A stretch of DNA of 33,507 bases from Chloroflexota bacterium (lineage in GTDB: Bacteria; Chloroflexota; Dehalococcoidia; Dehalococcoidales; JAFGLR01), in NCBI GenBank assembly GCA_016210585.1, contig JACQTX010000200.1, positions 1 through 33,507 on the forward strand, written 5' to 3'. Positions 5,286 to 33,128 of this stretch are shown in pieces. Under the pieces are notes generated by a model, which saw only the letters and a program-made list of their open reading frames with translations, made no database searches and had not been told where the DNA came from. How positions within the stretch are numbered: position 1 is the first letter of the stretch; each line of letters opens with the position of its first letter. A program made the position numbers and the translations under genes.

Positions 5286-5314
5286 TTGACAAAAAAAACT
5301 GGTTGTGGTTTACT
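5286..5314 (+). promoter_or_regulatory. Sigma70-type promoter for the structured RNA
   Basis: TTGACA (5286-5291), 17 nt spacer, TTTACT (5309-5314). Confidence 0.6.
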
Positions 5315-5320
5315 AGAAAC

Positions 5321-5577
5321 TGAAGGTCGACCCGGGGACCTGAAAAAAAGTGCTACGGAGGTGTCGATGAGGCTACACGTAGTATGGAGAGTATTCCAGG
5401 TTGACAGTTGATGCCCTGCAGAGGCAGGGCACCTCAAACTCGACCTGGCTCGAGTGAGAAACTGGGGTAGAGTCCCATAATAAGGACGCCCAGTGCGGTC
5501 GTGATGACCGCAAGTGAGCCTAAGTCGAGAAACAAGACTTGGCGTGGAGAGCACTTTTAGTGCTCTCCACTTTTTTT
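5321..5577 (+). ncRNA. Unidentified structured non-coding RNA (~255 nt) or long leader of the rhomboid gene
   Basis: Promoter-like element upstream, no convincing ORF, stems 5396-5404/5440-5448, 5412-5419/5424-5431, 5461-5466/5489-5494, 5495-5500/5506-5511, and a strong intrinsic terminator at the 3' end. Confidence 0.6.
5544..5577 (+). terminator. Rho-independent terminator
   Basis: gtggagagcact-ttt-agtgctctccac perfect 12 bp stem followed by T7. Confidence 0.93.
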
Positions 5578-7273: not shown

Positions 7274-7741
7274 CTAGCCGATGCTCCTGATGATGTTGGC
7301 CATTTCGATGGCGCTGACCGCAGCCGCAAAGCCCTTGTTCCCCTCTTTGGTCCCCGCTCGCTCAATCGCCTGCTCCAGGTTATCCGTGGTGATGACGCCG
7401 TAGATGACTGGCAGCCCGGTCTCCAGGTTCACCTGGGCGATGCCCTTGGTGACTTCCGCGGCGATATACTCAAAATGCGGTGTCCCCCCGCGAATGACGG
7501 CACCGAGGCAGATAACCGCGTCATAGCGTTTGGTCTGGGCCAGCTTTTTGGCAATCAGGGGAATCTCAAAGGAGCCAGGCACCCAGGCTACCTCTATGTC
7601 CTCCTGGTTGACGCCGTGGCGCAGCAAGGCGTCCTGCGCCCCTTCCAGCAGCTTCTTGCTGATGAACTCATTGAAGCGGGAGACCACCACCCCGAACTTC
7701 AGCCCCTTGCCCAGCAGCATGCCTTCGAACAATCTGGCCAT
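7274..7741 (-). CDS. ribH: 6,7-dimethyl-8-ribityllumazine synthase
   Basis: [70 protein letters not shown] motifs. Confidence 0.97.
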
Positions 7742-7784
7742 TGTCTTCTCCTTTTGAGGCTATTTGGTAGCGCTCCATGCCATC

Positions 7785-7865
7785 GTTACAAAAACACATT
7801 ACTCCCATTCCGGCGAAAGCGGGAATCCAGGCAGGGGATCAATTGTCTGGATACCTACTTTCGTC
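7785..7865. repeat. Dispersed hairpin-forming intergenic repeat, copy 2 (between ribH and ribBA)
   Basis: gttacaaaaac...cccattccggcgaaagcgggaatccag...tctggatacc; aligns by eye to the reverse complement of ~11080-11145. Confidence 0.65.
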
Positions 7866-7943
7866 GCTATGGTGAAATCGTGTATCTCCACACCCCAGTA
7901 GCAGCAACGGCAACCCAGCACCTGGAAGTGTTACAGGTCCTTA

Positions 7944-9167
7944 TCACTGACTCGTGTCAGTAGTATCAGCGATTTTCAGGAGGTGTCCCAGCTTCTTCTG
8001 CTTGGTCTCCAGGTAGCGGCGGTTATGAGGGTTGGGCGCGGCGATGATGGGTATGGTCTCCACCACCTTCAGGCCATAGCCTTCCAGTCCAATAACCTTC
8101 TTGGGGTTGTTAGTGAGCAGCTTAATCTTGTGCAGGCCGAGGTCAGCCAGGATTTGGGCGCCGATGCCGTAGTCTCGCAGGTCCGGAGCAAAGCCCAGGT
8201 GCAGGTTGGCTTCTACAGTGTCCAGCCCTTTGTCCTGGAGGGCATAGGCACGTATCTTATTGTGGAAGCCGATGCCCCGCCCCTCCTGCCGCATGTAAAG
8301 CAAGACGCCGCGGCCCTCACGGGCGATGCTCTGCAGGGCCAGGTCAACCTGCTCACCACAATCGCAGCGCAGGCTGCCAAAAACGTCCCCCGTCAGGCAC
8401 TCGCTGTGGACGCGCACGAGCACCGGTTCGTCCGTAGAAATATCGCCCATCGCCATCGCCAACTGCTCGTCAGGGTCAGTATCGCTCTTGTAGGCAAAGG
8501 CGGTGAACTCGCCGTAGGTCGTGGGTAGCCTGGCTTCCGCCACCCGGTGCACCAGCTTTTCATGTCGGCGCCGGTAGGCAATCAGGTCCGCAATAGTCAC
8601 AATCTTTATGCCAAACTTCTGGGCCACCACCTCGAGCTGGGGCAAACGGGCCATGGAGCCATCTGCGTTCAGAATCTCGCAGATGACCGCTGCCGGATAA
8701 AATCCGGCCAACCGGGCCAGGTCAACGGATGCCTCGGTATGCCCGGCGCGCACCAGGACGCCGCCATCCCTGGCCCGCAGCGGGAACATATGGCCCGGCC
8801 GCACCAGGTCATCAGGCTTGGTGGCCGGGTTGACTATCGTCCGGACGGTTTCCGCACGGTCAGCCGCTGAGATACCCGTGCCCACCTTGTGCTTGGCCTC
8901 GATGGATACGGTGAAGGCCGTGCCGTGTTTGGATGTATTATCCCCGACCATGAGAGGAATCTGCAGCTCGTCCAGCCGTTTCCCCGCGATGGGCAGGCAA
9001 ATCAGTCCCCTGGCATACAGGGTCATGAAGTTGACAGCTTCGGTGCTGACCTTTTCCGCCGCCAGGACCAGGTCACCTTCATTCTCCCGGTCCTCATCGT
9101 CAATAATGATGACGAACTTGCCAGCCTCAATATCAGCGATTGCGTCTGGAATACTCGCTATTGCCAT
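7944..9167 (-). CDS. ribBA: Bifunctional 3,4-dihydroxy-2-butanone-4-phosphate synthase / GTP cyclohydrolase II
   Basis: [31 protein letters not shown] (RibB) and [33 protein letters not shown] (RibA). Confidence 0.98.
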
Positions 9168-9181
9168 AGTAAATACCTCGT

Positions 9182-9811
9182 TTAGCTTACCAGGAAGCCA
9201 TGCTCCTGGAGAAATGCATCCGTTATTCCTGTGCCTTTTGCCTGCTGGAGCTGCTCCACATATTTGGCAATTATGTCTATCTCCAGGTTGACCGGTTCAC
9301 CGGCACGCCGCCGGCCCAGGTTAGTATTGTGCCAGGTATAGTCAACGATGGAAACTGCAAACGAATGTGGGTCTCTGTCCGTTACAGTCAGACTGACGCC
9401 GTCAACGGCTATGAAGCCCTTTTCCACTATGTAGCGCATGATTTCAGCCGGCGCCCCGAAGCTGACCAGCACCGCCCCTTTTGCCGGCGCCAGGGAGATT
9501 ACATAGCCGGTGCCGTCCACATGTCCTTGTACCAGGTGGCCACCCAGGCGCCCGCCCAAGGCTAGTGGTCTCTCCAAGTTAACACCGGATCCTGCTGAAA
9601 GCCGGCCAAGGTTGCTCCGCCGCAGCGTCTCCGGCATGACGTCAACGGTAAAGGAGCCGGTATCAAACCTGGTGACGGTGAGGCACACCCCGTTGACAGC
9701 AATGCTATCTCCCAGAGACATGCCCTGCGTGACCTTCCGGGCCGCTACTATGAGATGGCCGGACTCTAGCGAGCTTACCCTGCCGACCTCTTCCACTATG
9801 CCGGTAAACAT
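9182..9811 (-). CDS. ribE: Riboflavin synthase alpha subunit
   Basis: [48 protein letters not shown] duplicated barrels. Confidence 0.97.
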
Positions 9812-10932
9812 ATCTGTTCCCCAACGTAGCCGCTGACGACTACGTCCTGGCCCATCTGCTCCACGCGCATATTCTTTAGCTGAATAGAATCAGCTATCTT
9901 GGCTGCCCCGTCACCGGCTACTGCCGTCACCGCTTTCTCACCCCCGATGATAACCGGGGCGATGAAGGCAACCACCTTGTCCACCAGGGCGGCATCAAAG
10001 AGCGAGCCGAGCAGCGTGCCGCCGCCCTCAACGAGCACGCTGGTTATCCCCCGGCTGCCCAGGACGCGGAATAGCTCCTTCAGGTCAACCTGCCCCTCAC
10101 CCAGGGGCAACTCCAGCAACTCCGCACTAGCCGCGTTGAAAGCGGACCTCTCTTCAGGTGTGGCTGGCCGGCCGAGCACGAGCAACGTCTTGCCTGGCTG
10201 CTGAAAGACCCGCGCCGTGACCGGGGTGCGACCCTTGCCGTCCACAATTACCCGGAGTGGTTGCTTCTTCACGGTGCCGCCTTTGCCGCCACAGCAGCGG
10301 ACAGTAAGCTGAGGGTCGTCACTCAGGACAGTATTGGCCCCCACCATAACAGCATCGCTCACGTAGCGGAGGTGGTGGGCATACCGGCGCGATTCAACAC
10401 CGCTGATCCACCGGGAGTCACCGCTCCTGGTGGCGATTTTCCCGTCCAGACTGGCGGCAAACTTGACCGTTACGAAAGGCATACGGGTGGTGATATGTTT
10501 GATGTAGGCCTCGTTAAGCTGCCTGGCTTCAGATTCGTGCTCGCCGGTATAGGTGCGGATACCCTGCGTTTGCAGCTCGCGCTGGCCACCCCCGGCGACC
10601 ACTGGATTGGGGTCGGTCATGGCGAAGTGCACCTCACCAATGCCCGCCGTGATGATAGCCCGGCTGCAGGGCGGCGTCCGGCCAAAGTGGCAGCATGGCT
10701 CCAATGTCACGTAAAGGGCAGCCCCCCGCGCCGCCTCACCGGCCTGCCGGAGCGCCACCACCTCAGCGTGGGCGTCACCGGGCGGCCGGGTGTAGCCCTG
10801 ACCAACTATGGTATCATCCTTGACCACCACAGCGCCTACCGCCGGGTTGGGACTGACCTGTCCCAGGGCCAGCCTGGCTAATGACAACGCCTGCGCCATG
10901 TAGTCCATACAGTATTCATTGTAGATAACCAC
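9796..10932 (-). CDS. ribD: Bifunctional diaminohydroxyphosphoribosylaminopyrimidine deaminase / 5-amino-6-(5-phosphoribosylamino)uracil reductase
   Basis: DYMAQALSLARLALGQVSPNPAVGAVVV, GDAHAEVVAL, TLEPCCHFGRTPPC, KFAASLDGKIATRSGDSRWIS; probable start MDYM at 10908. Confidence 0.97.
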   Translation of the reverse strand: MVIYNEYCMDYMAQALSLARLALGQVSPNPAVGAVVVKDDTIVGQGYTRPPGDAHAEVVALRQAGEAARGAALYVTLEPCCHFGRTPPCSRAIITAGIGEVHFAMTDPNPVVAGGGQRELQTQGIRTYTGEHESEARQLNEAYIKHITTRMPFVTVKFAASLDGKIATRSGDSRWISGVESRRYAHHLRYVSDAVMVGANTVLSDDPQLTVRCCGGKGGTVKKQPLRVIVDGKGRTPVTARVFQQPGKTLLVLGRPATPEERSAFNAASAELLELPLGEGQVDLKELFRVLGSRGITSVLVEGGGTLLGSLFDAALVDKVVAFIAPVIIGGEKAVTAVAGDGAAKIADSIQLKNMRVEQMGQDVVVSGYVGEQICLPA

Positions 10933-18668: not shown

Positions 18669-20315
18669 CTACGTCAGTGGCTGGATTCGTAGTGGCGGGC
18701 GGAGTGCGACAGCTCGGAAGGCGTCGTTGGCGACGCCTGGTAGCTCGGTGCGCCACAGCCAGGCCTTGCCGTGAAACTCGAAGCGATTGGCCTGGACACC
18801 GGCGAGGTCATCCAGGACTTCCTGGTAGCTGGAACGGCTCCCCGTCTCAGCCAGCAGACGCCGCAGGGTCGTCTCCATTACCAGGGCGAGGCAACATATC
18901 AAGATGTGGCCTCTCACATGCTCTTCCAGTCTCAAATAGACCGGCCTTAGCTCCAGGCCACTCTTGAGTTCGCGGAAGGCCCGCTCAATCTGCCACAGGC
19001 TCTTGTAGTCCAGGGCCACCTCGTCGGTAGGGAGGTTAGTGTTAGTTCTGACTACCCACTTGCCATCGTAGCGCGCCTCCTTGCGAATCACCGCCTCCCT
19101 CAGCGCCAGTTCCCCGCCTTTCAGTTCGACGAAGCGCCGTAGCCCTCGGGGCATGATGAAAGCCTGGGCGCCCTTCTTGCTCAGGTCTTCTCGAGCGCGC
19201 TCGATGATCTCCTCCCGCCGCTTCCGGTCTCGTTCCTCTGCCTCAGCGTTGTGGCATACCACATAGCGATGGCCGTTTACCCATACCTCTTTGGCCTCCA
19301 CGTTATCGTCCACCTTGTGATAGCGGCCGGCCCGGCTCAGTACCACGTCCCGTACTTCCTTGTTCTGGCGCAGCCGCATCCCCAGGATGTAGTCGATCTT
19401 CGTGTCGACCTTGCCTTGGCTTCCAGCCTGGTTATCATCAGGCTCCTTCTCCAGGTCTTCTATGACTTCTTCGGAGACGACGCCCCGGTCGGCCACGATG
19501 ACTACCCTCCTTATCGGGAAGCGCCGCCTGAGGTCACCAAGTGCAGCGCGGAAGGCGTTGATGTCAGCGGTGTTGCCCGGGAAGACGTGATGGGCCACCG
19601 GGAAGCCATCCCCGGTTATCACTAAGCCCACCAGCACCTTGACGCACTCCGGGTGGTTCCCAGGGCGGCCCGGACAGGCCAGGCCTTCCGGTCCTCGCCC
19701 TTCAAAGTGCACCAGCGTGGTATCGAAGAGCACCAGGTCTACCTCCAGCGAGAACAGGTCGCGGCCTCGGACAAAGAGGGCCTGCTCAATGCTGTCCTTG
19801 CCCTTCACCAGGTAGCCCAGAGCCCGGTACAGATGATGTAGCTCGATCGCCTCGAACTCCGGACGGTACACCGCCTTGTGCATCCAGGTGTAAGTCCGCC
19901 GTTTGCTGCCGGGATCCAGGATGCGATGCACGACCATGGCGAAGGCTGCTTCGTCCAGGGAGAACTGTACCTCGGTCTTGCCCTGCAACCGGGTTAGCTG
20001 CTTGTTGAGCTCAAGATGCTCCCACAACCTGCGGAACACCAGCACCGGCCCGTAGCACTGACCGTGTTCCAGCCGTCCCTGGCCCTCGACTTCTACCCAG
20101 CACCTCTCCGAGTACCTGGCTAACGAAGCGATAAGGCGGTCAACGGCGCCGCTCGCCTGCAGCACATCCATCCGCCCCAGCTTGGCTACCAGCTCCTGGC
20201 GCTCTTTACCGCCGGACATGTAGTTGCGGCACAGGTACAGGTAGATGCGGGCTGACCCATCCTTGTTGCGGCGAATGAACTGGCGGATAAACATTCCATC
20301 AATATCATCGCTCAC
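18669..20315 (-). mobile_element. IS1634-type (IS4-like DDE) transposase
   Basis: DLVLFDTTLVHFEG, RRVVIVADRGVVSEEVIEDL, DGKWVVRTNTNLPTDEVALDYKSLWQIERAFRELKSGLELRPVYLRLEEHVRGHILICCLAL. Confidence 0.9.
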
Positions 20316-24549: not shown

Positions 24550-27500
24550 TCAGTCCAATCCGACAATTATCCTTTCGACTTTTGTAATATCGAGCGCGTT
24601 GACTTTGCCATCCTGATTGGCATCCGCTCCGGGTGTTAGTGCATCCAGGCGGGCTATGACTCTTTCCACCATCGTGATGTCAAGAGCATCTAGAATGCCA
24701 TCACCGTTAGCGTCTCCGGGACGTATGGAAATACTCACACTATCGCCAATCCAGGTTGTCGGTATTTCTGTAGCAGTATTACTGGAAAGCATGCCTTCAG
24801 ACAGGTCTATTCTGCTGTTGGTGCCGAGAGGGCCAACAGCACGGAAACGTAGCGTGGCCAAGTGACCTGAGCCGGTAACCCCACTAAGCCCTGGAATATT
24901 CTGGACGATGACGTATTGGCCAACGCCAAGCTTATTGTAAAAGTCAACTGGCACGATTGTCGAGCCGATAACCCCTGAGGTCACAGAATCCAACCTGAGG
25001 ACGGACTCATCAAAAGTAAGGCTGTAATTAGCTGCATCCAGATTGTCCACCTGCTGTATGTCAACGGTAACTGTGAAATCAGAGTTCTCCGTAACATTGT
25101 CCGGGGCATTAACAGCTACCACAGTAGGCTGGATATTCGGGGGCAAGGCCACCGGGATTTCCATTGACACGAAGTCGGTAAGACCGCTCGAATCAGTTAC
25201 CGTAAGTGTCACCGGATAGTACCAGGGCGAGGAATAGGAATGAGTTACGTTCATTCCAGTAGCCACCGTACCATCACCGAAGTCCCAGTCATAGGAAACG
25301 ATACTACTGTCAACATCACTCGAGGACGAAGCATCGTAGGTGACCTGCTGGTTCACCACTGTAGAAGTTGGCGAAGAGGTGAATAAAGCAATAGGAGGCT
25401 GAGGAGGAACATACTCCTTGATGGTGATATTATCAAGATAGACTCCCCAGGTGTGCGAGATGCCATCGCCATTCGCCTCAAACATCAGTCGGAAATTCTG
25501 CGACTTGTAGGCAGACAAGTCCAGGGGAGAATACGACTGCTCCCCCGAGGCTCCCCCAAGCTCTCTTATGTAGCTCCAGGTTTGTCCGCCGTCGCTGGAA
25601 ACCGCAATCTTCAGAGAATCACCGCTTTCGGGAGGCAGATTCATTTCAAGGTCGTAGAATAAGCCGGGAGAGTTATACAAGGTCGTATCAGTGACGGGCA
25701 TAATTAGCTGGTCCAATAGGCTCTGGGGCCACACACCCGTTTGCGAGTCAAAGGCTGCCCACTGCCAGGAGCCATTGCGCTCGCGCAACTGCCAGTAGTT
25801 CCCTACTCCCGTTGCGGTTTCGCCCCAGGGTGGTAAGCCCACCTCCGGGCCTGAGCCGTCGGAGCCAACGTTGTAGTAAAATACCTGGCCGGTCATATTG
25901 TCATAGACCTTGGTATTGTCCACCCAGAATGCACCGTCTGATGGGTATCCCCCATCCTCGTCGGAGTTCTGCGCGTCTGAGACAAAACGGAACCTGAGCT
26001 TGAGGGGCGAGAGTATACCATCGGGTATCTCATAAGCCAGTCCCTCCACCCATCCCTGCGAGTTGCCGGAGTACTGGGCAAGTGGCTGCCACTGGTCTGC
26101 CGAAGGGTTGTATACCTCCGCATAGGCTATATCTTTGTCCAGCTCGGTATCGTACCTGGCGACGAAGCTGAGCCACGGGTCGGAGTTATCCGGTATAACT
26201 ATATCAGGGAACATCAGGAACTCGTCCCAGTTGTTGCCGTAGCCAGAACCCGACATATACTGCGCATTGGTCCTGGGGTCCGTGCCATCGTTACCAAACC
26301 ACCAGGATAGGGCGGTTGCCTGCTGAAGTGGAGTGCCTGCATTAACAGTCCCGATAACGAGAGCCCGACCCATGGCGTATGCGTTGTACGAAGAGGGGCT
26401 CTTGACCCGGGCAAGAGACCTCACCGAGCCGTCAAGTGTAGTCCACCCCATCGTCTGAGGCCTGCCAGAGCCGGGCTCTTCAAAACGCCATATGATTGGA
26501 GTCTCGACCCGTATGGGCTTAACATAAATAGTTATCTTGAAGGCGTCATTGTTGGGATTGTCATCTGGCGGCGGCGGATCGTCAGGGTCGAAAGGAGGCG
26601 CCCAGGGAGGTCCCCAGGGAGGAGATGGCGGAGGGCCGCCGTTGCCGCCGGGTGGGCTGAAATTGCCGCCGGTGAATGTGGGCACCGCGGTGTTTTTGCC
26701 CGGCGGCACCGTAACCGTAACTGTTACCGTGGCACTCTGCCCGGGGTCAAGGGGCGGGATAGTCGGCGAGACTGGTGGTGGCACGGGATGCCGGTACCGG
26801 CAGTCAAGGAACTCCAGCACCCTTCCCATGAATGCCTCACGGTCAGCGGCCTGCGGCAGGTTGTAGGCATCAACAGTAACGGTGGAAAGGACCGTAATAT
26901 ACTTCCCGCTATCCGCCTGGATGCCGGCGATTACGCCTGGGTACAGGAAGAACTCCCGCCCGCCCTCCTTGACGCCCTTAATCCCGTAGTTATCACTGCT
27001 GGGCGGTATTTCGAAGTAGAAGCCATCGCCGATGGTTCCCGGCACACCGTTTACAAGGGCGCCGGTGAACTTCTTTCCATAGCCATCAGCGAACATATAG
27101 TCGCTCATCAGCGTGCCGGTATTTGCCTGCCACTGGAACATGATGCCGCTGCCGAATACCGCAAGGCATCCGCCGTTGTCCAGGTATGTCTCAAGTTCCG
27201 GCTGGGCGATGCCCTCAAGCGTCCCGGCGGTATCACTGCCGGACTCCCAGATGACAACGTCATAGTCCTTAAGGTCTTTGGTGCCGGCGTCGCCATCTTC
27301 GTACCTGGGCGTGTACTGCGTATCTACGAATACCGTATCATAGGTGACACCGAGGCTGCCCAGGGCTTGCTGATAATAAACATGGTTCCCGCTGGATTCA
27401 CCAACCACGAGCAGGACCTTCCTGGACGACGGATGGGAGTAGACCTTGATGCCGAGGGTCAATCCGGTCGCACTAAGAAGCCCGCTGTTGGTGATGGTAA

Positions 27501-30500
27501 CGTCTATGGGCACCTGCGTTGTATCAGGGTCAATATAGGGCTTTGTCTTGACCCCGATGTCTCTGCGGCTCGTGCCACTGGTTGTATCATCTCCGTCGCC
27601 TCCGGAGGGAGGAGGTGGTGGTGTGGGAGGACCCCCTCCGGGGTCTACAATGGACGTGTCCGGCGGGAAACGCGGGTCTGGAGGTAGCGGGCCGGTGGGC
27701 GGGTTTTGCGACACCGGCGGCTCTTTCCTCTTCTTGCAGTTGGCTTCGACGGAGTCGTGGAAGCTGTCCTTTGCCGCCTGATATAGGTCTTTTTGGAACT
27801 TTTCTATTTTATACTGTAAGCTTCTCGCTAGCGCGTTTATGTCATCTAGCTGGTCTTCGTAGGTACCCTGCAGGTCCACGACGTCCGATATTAAGTTAGC
27901 CACGGTTACCGAATCGCTTAAATTATCGGTGGCGTCGGCCAAAAAATCAGCGGCAGCCCAACCCATATCTGTCGCGGATATCCCGCTTCCACTGGCAGCG
28001 TCGTAGGCTAGGCCCGCTGCTACACCGGCAGCCGCTCCCAGCACAGGGTTTGCGGTCAACGCGGTCACCAGGGCACCAACCCCCGCTCCTATGAAAGCGG
28101 AAATTACGGTGTTCCACCCACTTCTATTGAACTCGTCCTGTGCCTGATTCCTCATCTGGTTGAGCATGTTATTGAGGTCTTTTGCTATCCTGGCGCCCGC
28201 TTCATAAATCTCTTGTAGAGTGTTACGGTAATCGTCGAAGGCTCGTCTAATGCAGTCCTCGTCATAATCGTTCAGTGGGTAGCGCCTTCCAGCAGCCCTT
28301 ATATATCCTGATTTCCCTCCAAAGAGGTCAACGCGGTTGACCGGGTTGTTCAGGGCGTAGAGGTACTGGTTGAGCTCGTCCAGCGTGGAGCCCCACGGGT
28401 CTTTTGATACAAACCTGCCGCCACGGGGGTCATAGTACCTCGCCCTGAGATAGTAGAGGCCGGTAGCCTGGTCATACTCCCTGCCGGTAAAGCGGTAGGG
28501 ATTGGTCAGGCTCCCTGTCTGCTGGGTGATAACGCCGAAGGCATCGTATCTATAGGTGGCAACAGTGTTCTGGGCACTGTTGGAGAGTGCAGTGACACTG
28601 CCCAGCCCATCAAAGTGATAGTAGGAAGACACTCCGCCCCGGCTCACCTTCACCGGCTCATCAATGCCAGGACCATGGGTATAGCGTGCCACCTGCGCCC
28701 CGGCACCATCCATCTCGACCAGCACATCCCTGATATCGTAGAAGTAGAAGGCGGTCCCCGCGCTATCGGTCCGGGTCAGCCGGTCGCCGTAGGGGGCATA
28801 CCCGTAGCTTACCTGGCTGGCATCAGGCAGGGTGACGCGTGTCAGCCGGTTCTCGTAATCGTACTGGTAGGCGGTCGCATTCTGGCCCTCGGTTTTCTTC
28901 ACCATGTTGCCATTGTTATCGTAGGCATAGGTTGTGGCACCGGCGGTAAGCATCCTGTTATCGGCATCATAGGTGTACGCAGTGGTGTTGGTACCTTTGG
29001 TTTCGGTCAGCCGGTTACCCGCCGGGTCATACGTGTAGTCGGTTACGGTACCGCCTGGGCCGGTCACGCGAATCAGCCGTGAGAGGGCGTCGTAAACATA
29101 GGCAGTGACATCGCCATTGCCTTCGGTCATGCTGAGCCTGTTGCCCGCGCTATCGTAGGTATAGGTGAAGCTGGAGATGGTCTCGCCGCCGGTCTTCTTG
29201 GTAGCCATGCTCAGCAGCCTGTAAGCGGCATCCCAGGCATAAGTGGTGACGACGCCGTTGGGATAAGCCTCTTTGGTCTTCCTGCCGGAGGCATCGTACT
29301 CGAGGGTGGTGATGTCGCCTGACGGGTCGGTAAGGCTAAGCTGCCTGCCTGCGTAGTCGTAGGTGTAGCTGGTTACGCCGCCCATGGGGTCGGTCATGGT
29401 GGCCCGCTTACCGGCGGTATTATAGGTGTAGGCTATAGTCTTCTGGAACGAGCCGTAGTTGACCGTGGTGGAGAGAATCCGGTTGAGAGCATCATAGGTG
29501 TTGTCAGTGGTCTCGCCTGCGCCGCCGCTGCTGGCGATGCGGGTGACATTGCTCTCAGCGTCGTATGTATAGTCCACCGTGCTTGCGTCGGGGTAGGTGA
29601 TACGGGTCCGCCGGTTGAGGGCATCATAGACATAGCCCGTCAGATTGCCGGAGGCATCGGTCCTGGTAATAGCGTTGCCCGCGGCATCGTAGGTATACCT
29701 TGTTTCATATCCGAGCGGCGAGGTGATCTTTATGAGCCTGCTAAAGGCATCATACTCGTAACCGGTGGTATTCTCCCGAGCATCGGTAAACCCGGTGAGG
29801 TTCCCGCGAGAATCATAGGTAAAGGTGGTCTGATTGCCCAGCGCATCAATCTGTTTGGTCAACCGGTTCATGGCATCGTACTGATTGGTGGTGACATTGC
29901 CGCTGGGATCGGTTATCTTTGTCTGGTTCCCCGCAGCATCATACTCATATGCAGTGTACTTACCCAGGGCATCGGTCTCCCTGGTCAACCTGTTTAACGC
30001 GTCATACTCGTAAGTGATGGCGCTCCCGCTGGCATCTGTCTGTGAGACGAGATTTCCCAGGGCGTCATAGCTATACAGCGTAGCTGCCTTCGGTACGGGA
30101 TTACCCTGAGCATCTTTGGTAGCTTCAGTCTGCTTGGTCCGCCTGCCCAGGCTATCGTACTCGTAGATTGTCATAGTGCCCGCGGCATCGGTCCTGGTGA
30201 TGAGGTCCCCCACCGCATTATAGATGAAGGTAGTGGCGTTGCCCCCCGCATCCGTGGTGGTAGTCACTCTGCCCATAGCATCATGTTGATAATTGGTGGC
30301 GTTGCCCCGCCTGTCGGTAACACTGGTCCTGTTACCCACGGCGTCGTAGGTAGTTACCGTTTGGTAACCCAGCGGGTCAACGACATGGGTGCGCCGGTTC
30401 AGCGCATCATACTGGTAGCTCGTGGTATTGCCCCGTGCATCTTTTGCGGATGCTATATTGCTGTTGGCGTCATAGGTAACGTTAAGGAGGATGACATCCG

Positions 30501-32193
30501 CCCGGGTCATCTTCGTAACCCTGTTCAATGCGTCATAATCAAAGACGGTGAGGTTGTCTGAGGCATCGAGTACGGTGGTGCGGTTGCCCGCCGCATCGTA
30601 CTGGTAGCTGGTCTGGTTACCCAGGGCATCCGTCTCCTTCGTGAGCACGTTCACACTGTTATACTCATAGGACGTGGTGTTGCCCCGCCGATCAGTCTGA
30701 CTCAGCCGGTTGCCCACGCGGTCGTAGGTAAACGATTCGGTCTTACCAGTGGCATCGGTGATGGATTTGACCCGTCCCAGACTGTCATAGGTCATACCGG
30801 TGACCCCACCTTTAGCATCGGTGGTGAGTAGCAGGCTGCCACTGGTGTCATACACGCGGGAGACGACTTGTCCAGCGGCGTCGGTGACCTTGATGACCGA
30901 GCCGCCCAGGTTGTAGCTGTACTGGATTACCCGGTTCGCCGGGTCTATGGTCTTGATGAGGCTTCCCTCTTCGTTGTAGAAATACCGGGTCTCACCACCA
31001 AGGGCGTTCCCTTGCTTCAGAAGGCGGTCATTGGCATCATACTCATAGGTGGTGACACGACCGCCGGGTTCCGTCTCGCTAACGGTTCGCCCGACAGCGT
31101 CATAAGCAAAAGTCGTGGTGTTGCCCAGGGGGTCGGTCTGGCTGAGCCGGTTACCGTGAGTGTCGTAAGTGTAGGTAGTGGACTTGCCTCTGAAGTCGGT
31201 ATAGATTACCCTGTTGCCGTAAGCATCGTAGGTGGCGTATGAGGTATTGTTCAGGGCATCGGTTGTGCGGACCAGGTTGCCCTTGCCGTCATAGGTGTAG
31301 ATGGTGGAAGAACCCCGGGCATCGGTGGTGCGGGTAAGCAGAGAGATAAAGGCGGTGCTGCTATTAATGTTGTTCCACGTCCAGTACTCCCGTCTGTCCA
31401 GCGGGTCGCCTTCAGACAGCCTGTTGCCTAAGCTATCATAGGTATATGTGTAGGTTTTCCCGTTGGCATCGGAATAGCCAGTCCTGTTCATGGCGGCATC
31501 CCAGGTCATCAAAGAAATGCCGCCCTGGGCATCGATGATACTTATGGGGTTGCCGCTGTCGTTGGTCTGCACGGTGGTGCGGTGGCCGCTGGAGTTCGTT
31601 GCCACAGTGACGCCGCGTCCGTAGCTTATAGAGTACAACGTAGTCACATTGTAAGGCAGTCCGGTGCTGCGATTGTAGAGGGAATTGCTGATTTCCACTA
31701 CCTGATTGGCTGAATAGCGGAAGTTGAGCATTCCGCCGTAGCGGTTGATGGCGCTCCTTAATACGTGGTCGGCATTATAGTAATAGACAGTGGACTGACT
31801 TAATGCATCGGTTACCTTAGACAGGTTACTGCCATCATACTCGTAGGAGGTCTGACGGCCCAGTGGGTCGGTGACGCTGACTATTTTGCCATTACTATAG
31901 GCAAATGTCAGCGCCAGCCCCGAATCATCTTCCACCCTAGTAAGATTCCCGCTGGTATAGGTAAAAACCAGGGTATTGCCGTTCCTGTCAACTATACGCT
32001 GAAGCTGACCACTGAGGGAGAATTTGTATTTGGAGCCGTCCTTGTGCCACAGGGTGAAGGAGCTATCGGAGTTTCTTATAAGCTTGGAATGCAGCCCAGA
32101 AGGAGAGGTATACGAGCCACCACCACTGTCAGTAAAAGTATGCACCGAGCCGTCTCCATCATAGTAGGTTCTTATGCATTTCAGTTTGGTCAC
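24550..32193 (-). CDS. Giant YD-repeat/RHS protein (2547 aa) with PKD, cohesin-like and dockerin modules at the C-terminus; N-terminus probably truncated
   Basis: Dozens of YDxxGN/YEYDALNR repeats; RHS-core end (PYRFTGREYDQATGLYYLRARYYDPRGGRFVSKDPWG...LYALNNPVNRVDLFG); PKD (YDWDFGDGT...HSYSSPWYYPVTLTVTDSSG); cohesin-like (FTVTVDIQQVDNLDAANYSLTFDESVLRLDSV); dockerin (GDANGDGILDALDITMVERVI...ADANQDGKVNALDITKVERII). Confidence 0.92.
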   Translation of the reverse strand: MTKLKCIRTYYDGDGSVHTFTDSGGGSYTSPSGLHSKLIRNSDSSFTLWHKDGSKYKFSLSGQLQRIVDRNGNTLVFTYTSGNLTRVEDDSGLALTFAYSNGKIVSVTDPLGRQTSYEYDGSNLSKVTDALSQSTVYYYNADHVLRSAINRYGGMLNFRYSANQVVEISNSLYNRSTGLPYNVTTLYSISYGRGVTVATNSSGHRTTVQTNDSGNPISIIDAQGGISLMTWDAAMNRTGYSDANGKTYTYTYDSLGNRLSEGDPLDRREYWTWNNINSSTAFISLLTRTTDARGSSTIYTYDGKGNLVRTTDALNNTSYATYDAYGNRVIYTDFRGKSTTYTYDTHGNRLSQTDPLGNTTTFAYDAVGRTVSETEPGGRVTTYEYDANDRLLKQGNALGGETRYFYNEEGSLIKTIDPANRVIQYSYNLGGSVIKVTDAAGQVVSRVYDTSGSLLLTTDAKGGVTGMTYDSLGRVKSITDATGKTESFTYDRVGNRLSQTDRRGNTTSYEYNSVNVLTKETDALGNQTSYQYDAAGNRTTVLDASDNLTVFDYDALNRVTKMTRADVILLNVTYDANSNIASAKDARGNTTSYQYDALNRRTHVVDPLGYQTVTTYDAVGNRTSVTDRRGNATNYQHDAMGRVTTTTDAGGNATTFIYNAVGDLITRTDAAGTMTIYEYDSLGRRTKQTEATKDAQGNPVPKAATLYSYDALGNLVSQTDASGSAITYEYDALNRLTRETDALGKYTAYEYDAAGNQTKITDPSGNVTTNQYDAMNRLTKQIDALGNQTTFTYDSRGNLTGFTDARENTTGYEYDAFSRLIKITSPLGYETRYTYDAAGNAITRTDASGNLTGYVYDALNRRTRITYPDASTVDYTYDAESNVTRIASSGGAGETTDNTYDALNRILSTTVNYGSFQKTIAYTYNTAGKRATMTDPMGGVTSYTYDYAGRQLSLTDPSGDITTLEYDASGRKTKEAYPNGVVTTYAWDAAYRLLSMATKKTGGETISSFTYTYDSAGNRLSMTEGNGDVTAYVYDALSRLIRVTGPGGTVTDYTYDPAGNRLTETKGTNTTAYTYDADNRMLTAGATTYAYDNNGNMVKKTEGQNATAYQYDYENRLTRVTLPDASQVSYGYAPYGDRLTRTDSAGTAFYFYDIRDVLVEMDGAGAQVARYTHGPGIDEPVKVSRGGVSSYYHFDGLGSVTALSNSAQNTVATYRYDAFGVITQQTGSLTNPYRFTGREYDQATGLYYLRARYYDPRGGRFVSKDPWGSTLDELNQYLYALNNPVNRVDLFGGKSGYIRAAGRRYPLNDYDEDCIRRAFDDYRNTLQEIYEAGARIAKDLNNMLNQMRNQAQDEFNRSGWNTVISAFIGAGVGALVTALTANPVLGAAAGVAAGLAYDAASGSGISATDMGWAAADFLADATDNLSDSVTVANLISDVVDLQGTYEDQLDDINALARSLQYKIEKFQKDLYQAAKDSFHDSVEANCKKRKEPPVSQNPPTGPLPPDPRFPPDTSIVDPGGGPPTPPPPPSGGDGDDTTSGTSRRDIGVKTKPYIDPDTTQVPIDVTITNSGLLSATGLTLGIKVYSHPSSRKVLLVVGESSGNHVYYQQALGSLGVTYDTVFVDTQYTPRYEDGDAGTKDLKDYDVVIWESGSDTAGTLEGIAQPELETYLDNGGCLAVFGSGIMFQWQANTGTLMSDYMFADGYGKKFTGALVNGVPGTIGDGFYFEIPPSSDNYGIKGVKEGGREFFLYPGVIAGIQADSGKYITVLSTVTVDAYNLPQAADREAFMGRVLEFLDCRYRHPVPPPVSPTIPPLDPGQSATVTVTVTVPPGKNTAVPTFTGGNFSPPGGNGGPPPSPPWGPPWAPPFDPDDPPPPDDNPNNDAFKITIYVKPIRVETPIIWRFEEPGSGRPQTMGWTTLDGSVRSLARVKSPSSYNAYAMGRALVIGTVNAGTPLQQATALSWWFGNDGTDPRTNAQYMSGSGYGNNWDEFLMFPDIVIPDNSDPWLSFVARYDTELDKDIAYAEVYNPSADQWQPLAQYSGNSQGWVEGLAYEIPDGILSPLKLRFRFVSDAQNSDEDGGYPSDGAFWVDNTKVYDNMTGQVFYYNVGSDGSGPEVGLPPWGETATGVGNYWQLRERNGSWQWAAFDSQTGVWPQSLLDQLIMPVTDTTLYNSPGLFYDLEMNLPPESGDSLKIAVSSDGGQTWSYIRELGGASGEQSYSPLDLSAYKSQNFRLMFEANGDGISHTWGVYLDNITIKEYVPPQPPIALFTSSPTSTVVNQQVTYDASSSSDVDSSIVSYDWDFGDGTVATGMNVTHSYSSPWYYPVTLTVTDSSGLTDFVSMEIPVALPPNIQPTVVAVNAPDNVTENSDFTVTVDIQQVDNLDAANYSLTFDESVLRLDSVTSGVIGSTIVPVDFYNKLGVGQYVIVQNIPGLSGVTGSGHLATLRFRAVGPLGTNSRIDLSEGMLSSNTATEIPTTWIGDSVSISIRPGDANGDGILDALDITMVERVIARLDALTPGADANQDGKVNALDITKVERIIVGLD
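28500..32100 (-). repeat. Degenerate tandem YD-repeat array at DNA level
   Basis: Recurring units such as gcatcgtaggtatag/gtgg...ttgcccagggcatcggt spaced at roughly 60-70 bp. Confidence 0.85.
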
Positions 32194-33128
32194 TTATCCG
32201 CCCTCACAAAGTCTGTCCAGCTCTTGTAGGGCAATTTGATTCCCGCAACCTCGGTGGGGGTCTTTCCCTTAAGGCCGATATGAGGCTTGAAGAAGTTGTA
32301 ATGAACAAGAAAACCGTCAATGATTTGCCGTGCTGTCGGCAAGGTCTTGTAACCTCTGACTACCTTCGTGCGGTCTTTTATCGTGCCCTGAAAGCGTTCT
32401 ATGATGTTGGTATCGTCTTTGTCTGCAAACGGTGAGCTTTGAATGTGCTTGGTATCCGCGCCGAAGGCCAGTTCTATACCGTCCAAGTACGCGGCTAGCT
32501 TATCAGTTATGACCCGCTTCGGGGCTTTACCGGCACGCTGGGCGGCCAATTCCATCAAGGCTTGTGCTTCTTTGGTCCCCCGCTTGGGTGTTAGATAAGA
32601 GGCCAGCAGGAACCGCGTGTCGTGGTCTATGATGTCCCACAGCCAGTGATTTACGTCATTGAACTTGATTACGGTCTCATCAGCTACCCAAGTATCAGAT
32701 ACCTTCGGCGTGTAAGATTCCATCATTTTGACGGCCTTCTGCGCGTAGGACATTATCCACCGGTAAACGGTGGACTCATTGACCGGATTCCCACTTTCCG
32801 CTAAGTGTCTGGCCACTTCTGGAAAAGACAATCCGTCATAGTATGAGCTAATGCTTGTCCCGATGTCCTCAATTGTTGAACGTTTGCCGTAGGGCGCGTC
32901 CTTGTTGTTGAACTTCCGCCCGCATTTCGTGCACAGGTATTGTTGAACGCCCTCATCAATGCCATACTTCTGAATATCCGTGCTGCCGCACCATTTACAC
33001 TTGATTGGCTCAGGCTCGGTGAAGTGATGCTCGGCAAGGTGAACTACGTCTTTTGTAATTTCCAGCAATAACTTACCGTCACGTTGGACTAGGCGGATTT
33101 TGGCTTTGTGTTGTGTCATTTTTAGCAT
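32190..33128 (-). mobile_element. DDE transposase with N-terminal zinc ribbon (IS6/IS240-like style)
   Basis: CKWCGSTDIQKYG...QYLCTKCGRKF zinc ribbon; STVYRWI; DTWVADETVIKFN..HWLWDIIDHDTRFLLA; VITDKLAAY; NIIERFQGTIKDRTKVVRGYK; YNFFKPHIGLKGKTPTEVAG. Confidence 0.87.

Follow-up and report, generated by a model that had tools for sequence, protein, structure and literature searches.

The DNA analysed in this study (hereafter the window) is a stretch of 33,507 nucleotides, positions 1-33,507 of the forward strand of contig JACQTX010000200.1 in assembly GCA_016210585.1, from a Chloroflexota bacterium (GTDB lineage: Bacteria; Chloroflexota; Dehalococcoidia; Dehalococcoidales; JAFGLR01). On its forward strand, a compact locus begins with a sigma-70-type promoter (5286-5314), read from the sequence as TTGACA (5286-5291), a 17-nt spacer and TTTACT (5309-5314). 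This is followed by a nearly invariant Shine-Dalgarno (SD) sequence, GGAGGTG (5357-5363), and by a 14-codon mini-ORF (5367-5411) encoding MRLHVVWRVFQVDS with the stop codon TGA (5409-5411). Hairpin H1 (GCCCTGC-AGAG-GCAGGGC, 5413-5430) begins 7 nt past the Asp13 codon (5403-5405). Further downstream lies a three-way junction, closed by a long helix whose 5' strand (5439-5451) pairs with the 3' strand GAGCCTAAGTCGAG (5516-5529) and whose arms are P2 (5461-5494, with the outer pairing ACTGGG/CCCAGT in this copy) and P3 (5494-5512, TGCGGTC-GTGAT-GACCGCA). The locus ends with an intrinsic terminator (5544-5577), comprised of a perfect 12-bp stem (5544-5570) and T7. The promoter and the terminator had both been pointed out in a preliminary description of this DNA, and both were confirmed.

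Elsewhere in the window, the minus strand carries the riboflavin genes ribH, ribBA, ribE and ribD (7274-10932; named from their translations), where no FMN riboswitch was found at the Rfam gathering score, and a gene for a very large YD/RHS-repeat secreted protein of 2547 aa (24550-32193), adjoined by transposase-like ORFs (32190-33128 and 18669-20315).

Anatomy, distribution and gene context of the RNA

The predicted fold of the RNA (5321-5577) has an energy of -113.3 kcal/mol, as compared with -78.1 +/- 4.2 kcal/mol for dinucleotide shuffles (z = -8.35), and none of 200 shuffles was as stable. Together with the covarying stems described below, this bears out the earlier claim of a highly structured RNA. 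Searches with the covariance models of Rfam 15 gave no family at or above the gathering score in the window (one tRNA elsewhere excepted) and none on the RNA in 18 homologous loci, which agrees with the preliminary description, where the RNA was assigned to no recognised family. At relaxed thresholds, the top sub-threshold match was sbrA (23.6 vs 45 bits), limited to the terminator. The possibility of a 6S RNA was rejected, as RF00013 matches nothing in the whole of the source genome, the structured RNA included.

By blastn, the structured RNA is single-copy in its own genome and was matched in 23 of 101 related genomes. With a covariance model derived from 19 sequences, it was found in 84 of the 156 genomes searched within the order (usually as one clear full-length copy) and in 14 of 301 genomes sampled across the phylum. 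The relatives that carry it belong to the Dehalococcoidales/Dehalococcoidia, and homologues are also present in other Chloroflexota classes. Its lack in 72 of the 156 genomes is partly a consequence of incompleteness, because most of them are metagenome assemblies; in family f8, though, complete genomes are also consistently without it.

When oriented, the homologues share a 5' part with TTGACA-N17, GGAGGTG, a 42-nt ungapped block and the GCCCTGC/GCAGGGC hairpin, and a 3' part with the long helix around two arms and the terminator GTGGAGRGCACTT...AGTGCYCTCCAC-Tn. TTGACA and an A/T-rich -10 element (mostly TAnnAT-like) are kept at the equivalent place in about 20 homologues, and most members of the order retain the terminator stem GTGGAGRGCACTT together with its pairing strand. 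The promoter copy of the window went unscored in a generic promoter scan because its -10 element, TTTACT, is poor. Comparative evidence of this kind shows the locus to have the predicted make-up of a stand-alone transcript of ~255 nt, a mini-mRNA and a structured RNA in one, with its own promoter and terminator.

The RNAs of other Chloroflexota groups have diverged in sequence and kept the order of promoter, ORF, hairpin, base-paired region with internal hairpins and terminator, an anatomy described by eye owing to poor automatic alignment. Their peptides include MNNRIRWGVWQVDx, MKKPHKVYGVWQVDF, MAQILYGVWQVDK and similar ones. A scan for the motif plus hairpin over 85,462 species genomes returned 68 stretches, of which approximately 62 were in Chloroflexota. 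One 'Bathyarchaeota' contig with a Dehalococcoidia-like copy is probably misbinned, and the five remaining non-Chloroflexota stretches, from Gemmiger (within long proteins) and Streptomyces (lacking a start and any RNA context), were judged to be chance matches. The string GVWQVD was not found in the literature searched. As judged by these comparisons, the sequences constitute a real RNA family, absent from Rfam and found across the Chloroflexota.

In the window, a rhomboid gene starts 67 nt downstream of the RNA, and a rhomboid-like gene is found 3' of it in no more than 6 of the 21 loci examined first. The other neighbours of stand-alone copies, named by eye from their translations, include genes for an M16 peptidase, an amidase and a ribulose-phosphate epimerase, pyrE and others, and several downstream genes are convergent. 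These varied contexts indicate an autonomous gene and not a rhomboid leader. An apparent pyrE lies ~160-235 nt downstream of the stand-alone RNA in 12 loci of a sister group within the Dehalococcoidia (L083, L084, L102, L127, L135, L139, L153, L235-L238 and L243, several of them probably the same gene fetched twice), for which vertical synteny and an added cis role are candidate readings.

Covariation and the three-way junction

Within an alignment of 65 distinct sequences, 29 of the 35 pairs in the five helices of the model have changed on both sides, and 91% of cells are paired. The number of two-sided cells was 230, as compared with 59.7 in shuffled controls, and the covariation score was 0.380, as compared with at most 0.085 in all slid controls; this alignment was fitted to the model, and an unfitted alignment of 19 sequences likewise exceeds the shuffled and slid controls. 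Covarying stems, which the preliminary description had named as the support to look for, are therefore present in the homologues. H1 is paired in 99.1% of cells, with compensatory changes at 3 of 7 pairs. The long helix (helices 2 and 3 of the model, with 89% and 93% of cells paired) has changes on both sides at 11 of 13 pairs, arm P2 (helix 4) at 8 of 8 and arm P3 (helix 5; 89% paired) at 7 of 7. At its base, the P2 arm of the window copy has a slightly different pairing. A possible 5' stem around the SD (alignment columns 10-15/39-44) pairs in about half of the sequences (52.6% of cells), with some compensation.

All five helices listed in the preliminary description exist in the window sequence, but two of them, those of 9 bp and 5 bp, are not the conserved pairings. 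The 9-bp helix (5396-5404/5440-5448) is not supported in the homologues, since 272 of 500 shuffled columns reach the observed pairing, and its 3' strand pairs with 5516-5529 in the conserved long helix. In place of the 5-bp helix (5449-5453/5525-5529), the consensus has ~5439-5443/5525-5529. The 9-bp helix was also considered as a conserved switch and was rejected, as it does not covary. In an attenuator test, an alternative helix between the QVD codons and the long-helix strand covaried no better than shuffles, and no covarying alternative pairing that a stalled ribosome would switch was found.

The mini-ORF and the register of its hairpin

The claim of the preliminary description that no good ORF explains this strand does not hold, as the 14-codon ORF at 5367-5411 has an SD (GGAGGTG) and is conserved at the protein level. 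It is the best-conserved part of the RNA, and corresponds to the 42-nt block. The family consensus of the peptide is M-[RK]-L-H-x-x-x-G-V-W-Q-V-D-x (written out as MRLHAVLGVWQVDS), from which the window peptide differs at two conserved positions, having R for G and F for W. Among 60 divergent sequences, V9 is conserved in 60, Q11 in 59, V12 in 57 and D13 in 59, while residues 5-7 are variable, as is the residue after Asp (S, R, K, C, W or stop). Conservation is thus concentrated toward the C-terminus, as in ribosome-arrest leaders.

At the codon level, the 60 sequences have 109 synonymous and 4 nonsynonymous single-base differences over codons 8-13, as compared with 30.7 and 82.3 expected, and the same region gave 1 vs 98 and 1 vs 106 in frames 1 and 2. 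Some loci had been gathered with a peptide-coding DNA pattern, and the subset obtained by blastn and the covariance model alone agrees (58 vs 4; the extraction constrained codons 11-13). Codons 9, 11, 12 and 13 are nearly constant at positions 1 and 2 and free at position 3. In-frame stops before Asp are absent from all 60 sequences; stops interrupt the other frames in 59 and 33 of them. Translation of the RNA, with G-V-W-Q-V-D conserved as amino acids, is therefore well supported by comparison. The conserved mini-ORF shifts the likely nature of the RNA from non-coding to dual-function or attenuator-like and, judged by comparison only, the locus resembles dual-function sRNAs in having a small ORF that is translated and a predicted short transcript of its own. 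Restart at an overlapping stop/start (TGATG after Asp-Ser) and frameshifting were set aside, given the free variation at third codon positions and a pattern that not all copies share. In one locus (L114), the mini-ORF has two tandem copies of the motif and ends with ...LGAWQVDQAFLGVWQVD and a stop codon.

The position of the hairpin was analysed in 55 non-redundant short-ORF loci, for whose collection a hairpin had not been required. In 53 of these, the strongest stem on the 3' side of the Asp codon begins 4-9 nt from it, as compared with 6.8% of shuffles. The stop codon lies 0-22 codons after Asp in the same loci, so the hairpin is tied to the peptide motif and not to the stop. With Asp in the P site, the base of the hairpin would presumably be positioned about at the ribosomal mRNA entry. 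GVWQVD was also met in long proteins of other Chloroflexota families, without a hairpin, and these cases were discarded.

Cis copies, proposed mechanism and known systems

The ORF and hairpin are also found without the three-way junction, directly upstream of other genes, commonly in several and in up to 4 copies per genome. These cis copies occur in at least 8 genomes, including G078, G065, G085, G035, G096, G069 and the source genome. A signal-peptide-like N-terminus, called with a simple hydropathy rule, is present in 17 of 20 proteins encoded downstream of cis copies, as compared with 7 of 69 proteins beside other copies, nearly all of which are stand-alone. Some of the cis-downstream proteins match peptidase families A4, C39 and M10. 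The comparison shows that the ORF-hairpin module is used separately, ahead of genes for putatively secreted proteins.

The two cis copies of the source genome (G000), both on the minus strand (C19, 17977-18118, L204; C23, 13078-13253, L205), have leader peptides MKLYLLYGVWQVDS and MRLYLLYGVWQVDS... with a hairpin and precede genes of two mutually homologous secreted proteins. In four cis leaders of family f35 (L199, L201, L212 and L202), the 5' arm of the hairpin can pair with two 3' arms, GGCAC(A/G)GGG or GGGCGGGG, which may form an alternative hairpin or a pseudoknot. Leaders L196, L197, L202 and L212 lie directly after genes ending with '...GWNDRASSIS', a conserved stretch of crystallin-like appearance, in tandem arrays of secreted-protein genes.

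The best explanation, put forward tentatively and with doubt slightly outweighing confidence, is a dual-function RNA in which translation of GVWQVD pauses the ribosome at Asp, the stand-alone form acting in trans and the cis copies controlling mRNAs of secreted proteins. The anatomy and the translation are well supported by sequence comparison; we infer the pausing, its trigger and the trans action. A nascent-peptide-dependent pause at ...QVD would be the most economical mechanism. While Asp is in the P site, the nascent peptide would slow or arrest the ribosome, and the hairpin at the mRNA entry site would reinforce the pause. In the stand-alone RNA, the pause may determine how stable the three-way-junction RNA is, how it folds or how it associates with ribosomes, and this RNA would act in trans; ahead of secreted-protein genes, the cis copies may use the same pause to control expression or stability of the mRNA. 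Points that weigh against this reading are the variable residue after Asp, the two departures of the window peptide from the consensus and the result that no covarying alternative pairing for a stalled ribosome to switch was found. A wider reading, in which one pausing module serves a trans-acting RNA and the cis leaders of a secreted-protein regulon as a phylum-wide Chloroflexota system responding to the same ribosome-sensed signal, is conceivable and on balance doubtful.

Other explanations have to be weighed against a pausing dual-function RNA. The micropeptide itself may work in trans by binding a protein or the ribosome (in a peTrpL-like manner), with no pausing and with a hairpin that only protects or terminates the mini-mRNA. 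Conservation of the peptide as protein suits this reading, which we regard as unlikely and still deserving attention, but the hairpin is locked to the Asp codon and not to the stop codon, many cis ORFs run up to 22 codons past Asp and so end in differing C-termini, and the occurrence of the peptide ahead of many unrelated secreted genes suggests cis action. That the mini-ORF is a generic leader, coupling translation or stabilising mRNA by 5' ribosome loading with no specific sensing, is distinctly improbable: some cis leader ORFs do stop 15-30 nt before the next start codon, and leader genes reportedly boost translation downstream (PMC4833913), yet mere loading would need neither the invariant V-x-Q-V-D nor the fixed hairpin spacing, and stand-alone copies have no downstream gene to couple.

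The two alternatives offered by the preliminary description, a trans-acting RNA and a terminator-controlled leader of the rhomboid gene, fared differently. Since contexts vary and promoter and terminator are kept, the putative trans-acting RNA is favoured. The leader reading draws on the short distance to the rhomboid gene here and on its presence in 6 of the first 21 loci, and the pyrE that follows in the related group of 12 loci would suit a cis leader; the same RNA and terminator, however, precede epimerase, M16 peptidase, amidase, convergent or other genes, which makes a rhomboid leader very improbable. A purely non-coding RNA, in which the apparent ORF reflects constraint at the RNA level, is hardly credible: the ORF region does adjoin structured elements, but position 3 is free at V9, Q11, V12 and D13 with positions 1 and 2 fixed, and frames 1 and 2 are without this pattern.

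The dual-function RNA proposed here adds a covariation-supported RNA family to the Chloroflexota, a phylum with few known regulatory RNAs, and defines a candidate secreted-protein regulon in uncultured bacteria. An RNA gene is here connected with a conserved peptide that has to be translated and with a hairpin set at a constant distance, which makes pausing directly testable in vitro. The case also illustrates that the lack of a long ORF in a structured sequence is weak ground for calling an RNA non-coding.

Several known systems resemble the Chloroflexota RNA in part. SgrS/SgrT, RNAIII and VcdRP are described as regulatory RNAs that also encode a small protein; in contrast to these, the Chloroflexota peptide has only 14 aa, the hairpin stands in a fixed register and the module is reused as a cis leader. 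tmRNA (RF00023) is likewise a structured RNA containing a short reading frame, but the Chloroflexota RNA has an SD and a start codon and no tRNA-like domain, ARAGORN finds no tmRNA in the window and the tmRNA of this genome sits on another contig, so a tmRNA was rejected. In ErmBL, ribosome arrest takes place at Asp10, and Arg7 and Val9-Lys11 are critical for it (PMC4935803); Lys11 has to occupy the A site. Such drug-dependent arrest peptides share with the mini-ORF a short leader ORF, critical residues just before the arrest codon and a Val-Asp end, and by analogy, with no homology claimed, ErmBL shows arrest to be possible with a short Val-Asp C-terminus. The Chloroflexota RNA differs in having no downstream resistance gene, a fixed hairpin and three-way junction, a non-conserved A-site residue and an arrest that is proposed. 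In Sinorhizobium meliloti, rnTrpL/peTrpL is a short RNA derived from the trp attenuator, with a leaderless ORF, of which both the 14-aa peptide and the RNA act in trans (PMC7298713). The Chloroflexota RNA differs from it by its SD, three-way junction and other peptide, and by having no biosynthetic operon downstream; the two are alike in being short transcripts with a 5' 14-codon ORF, a structured 3' part and a terminator, for which action in trans has been proposed.
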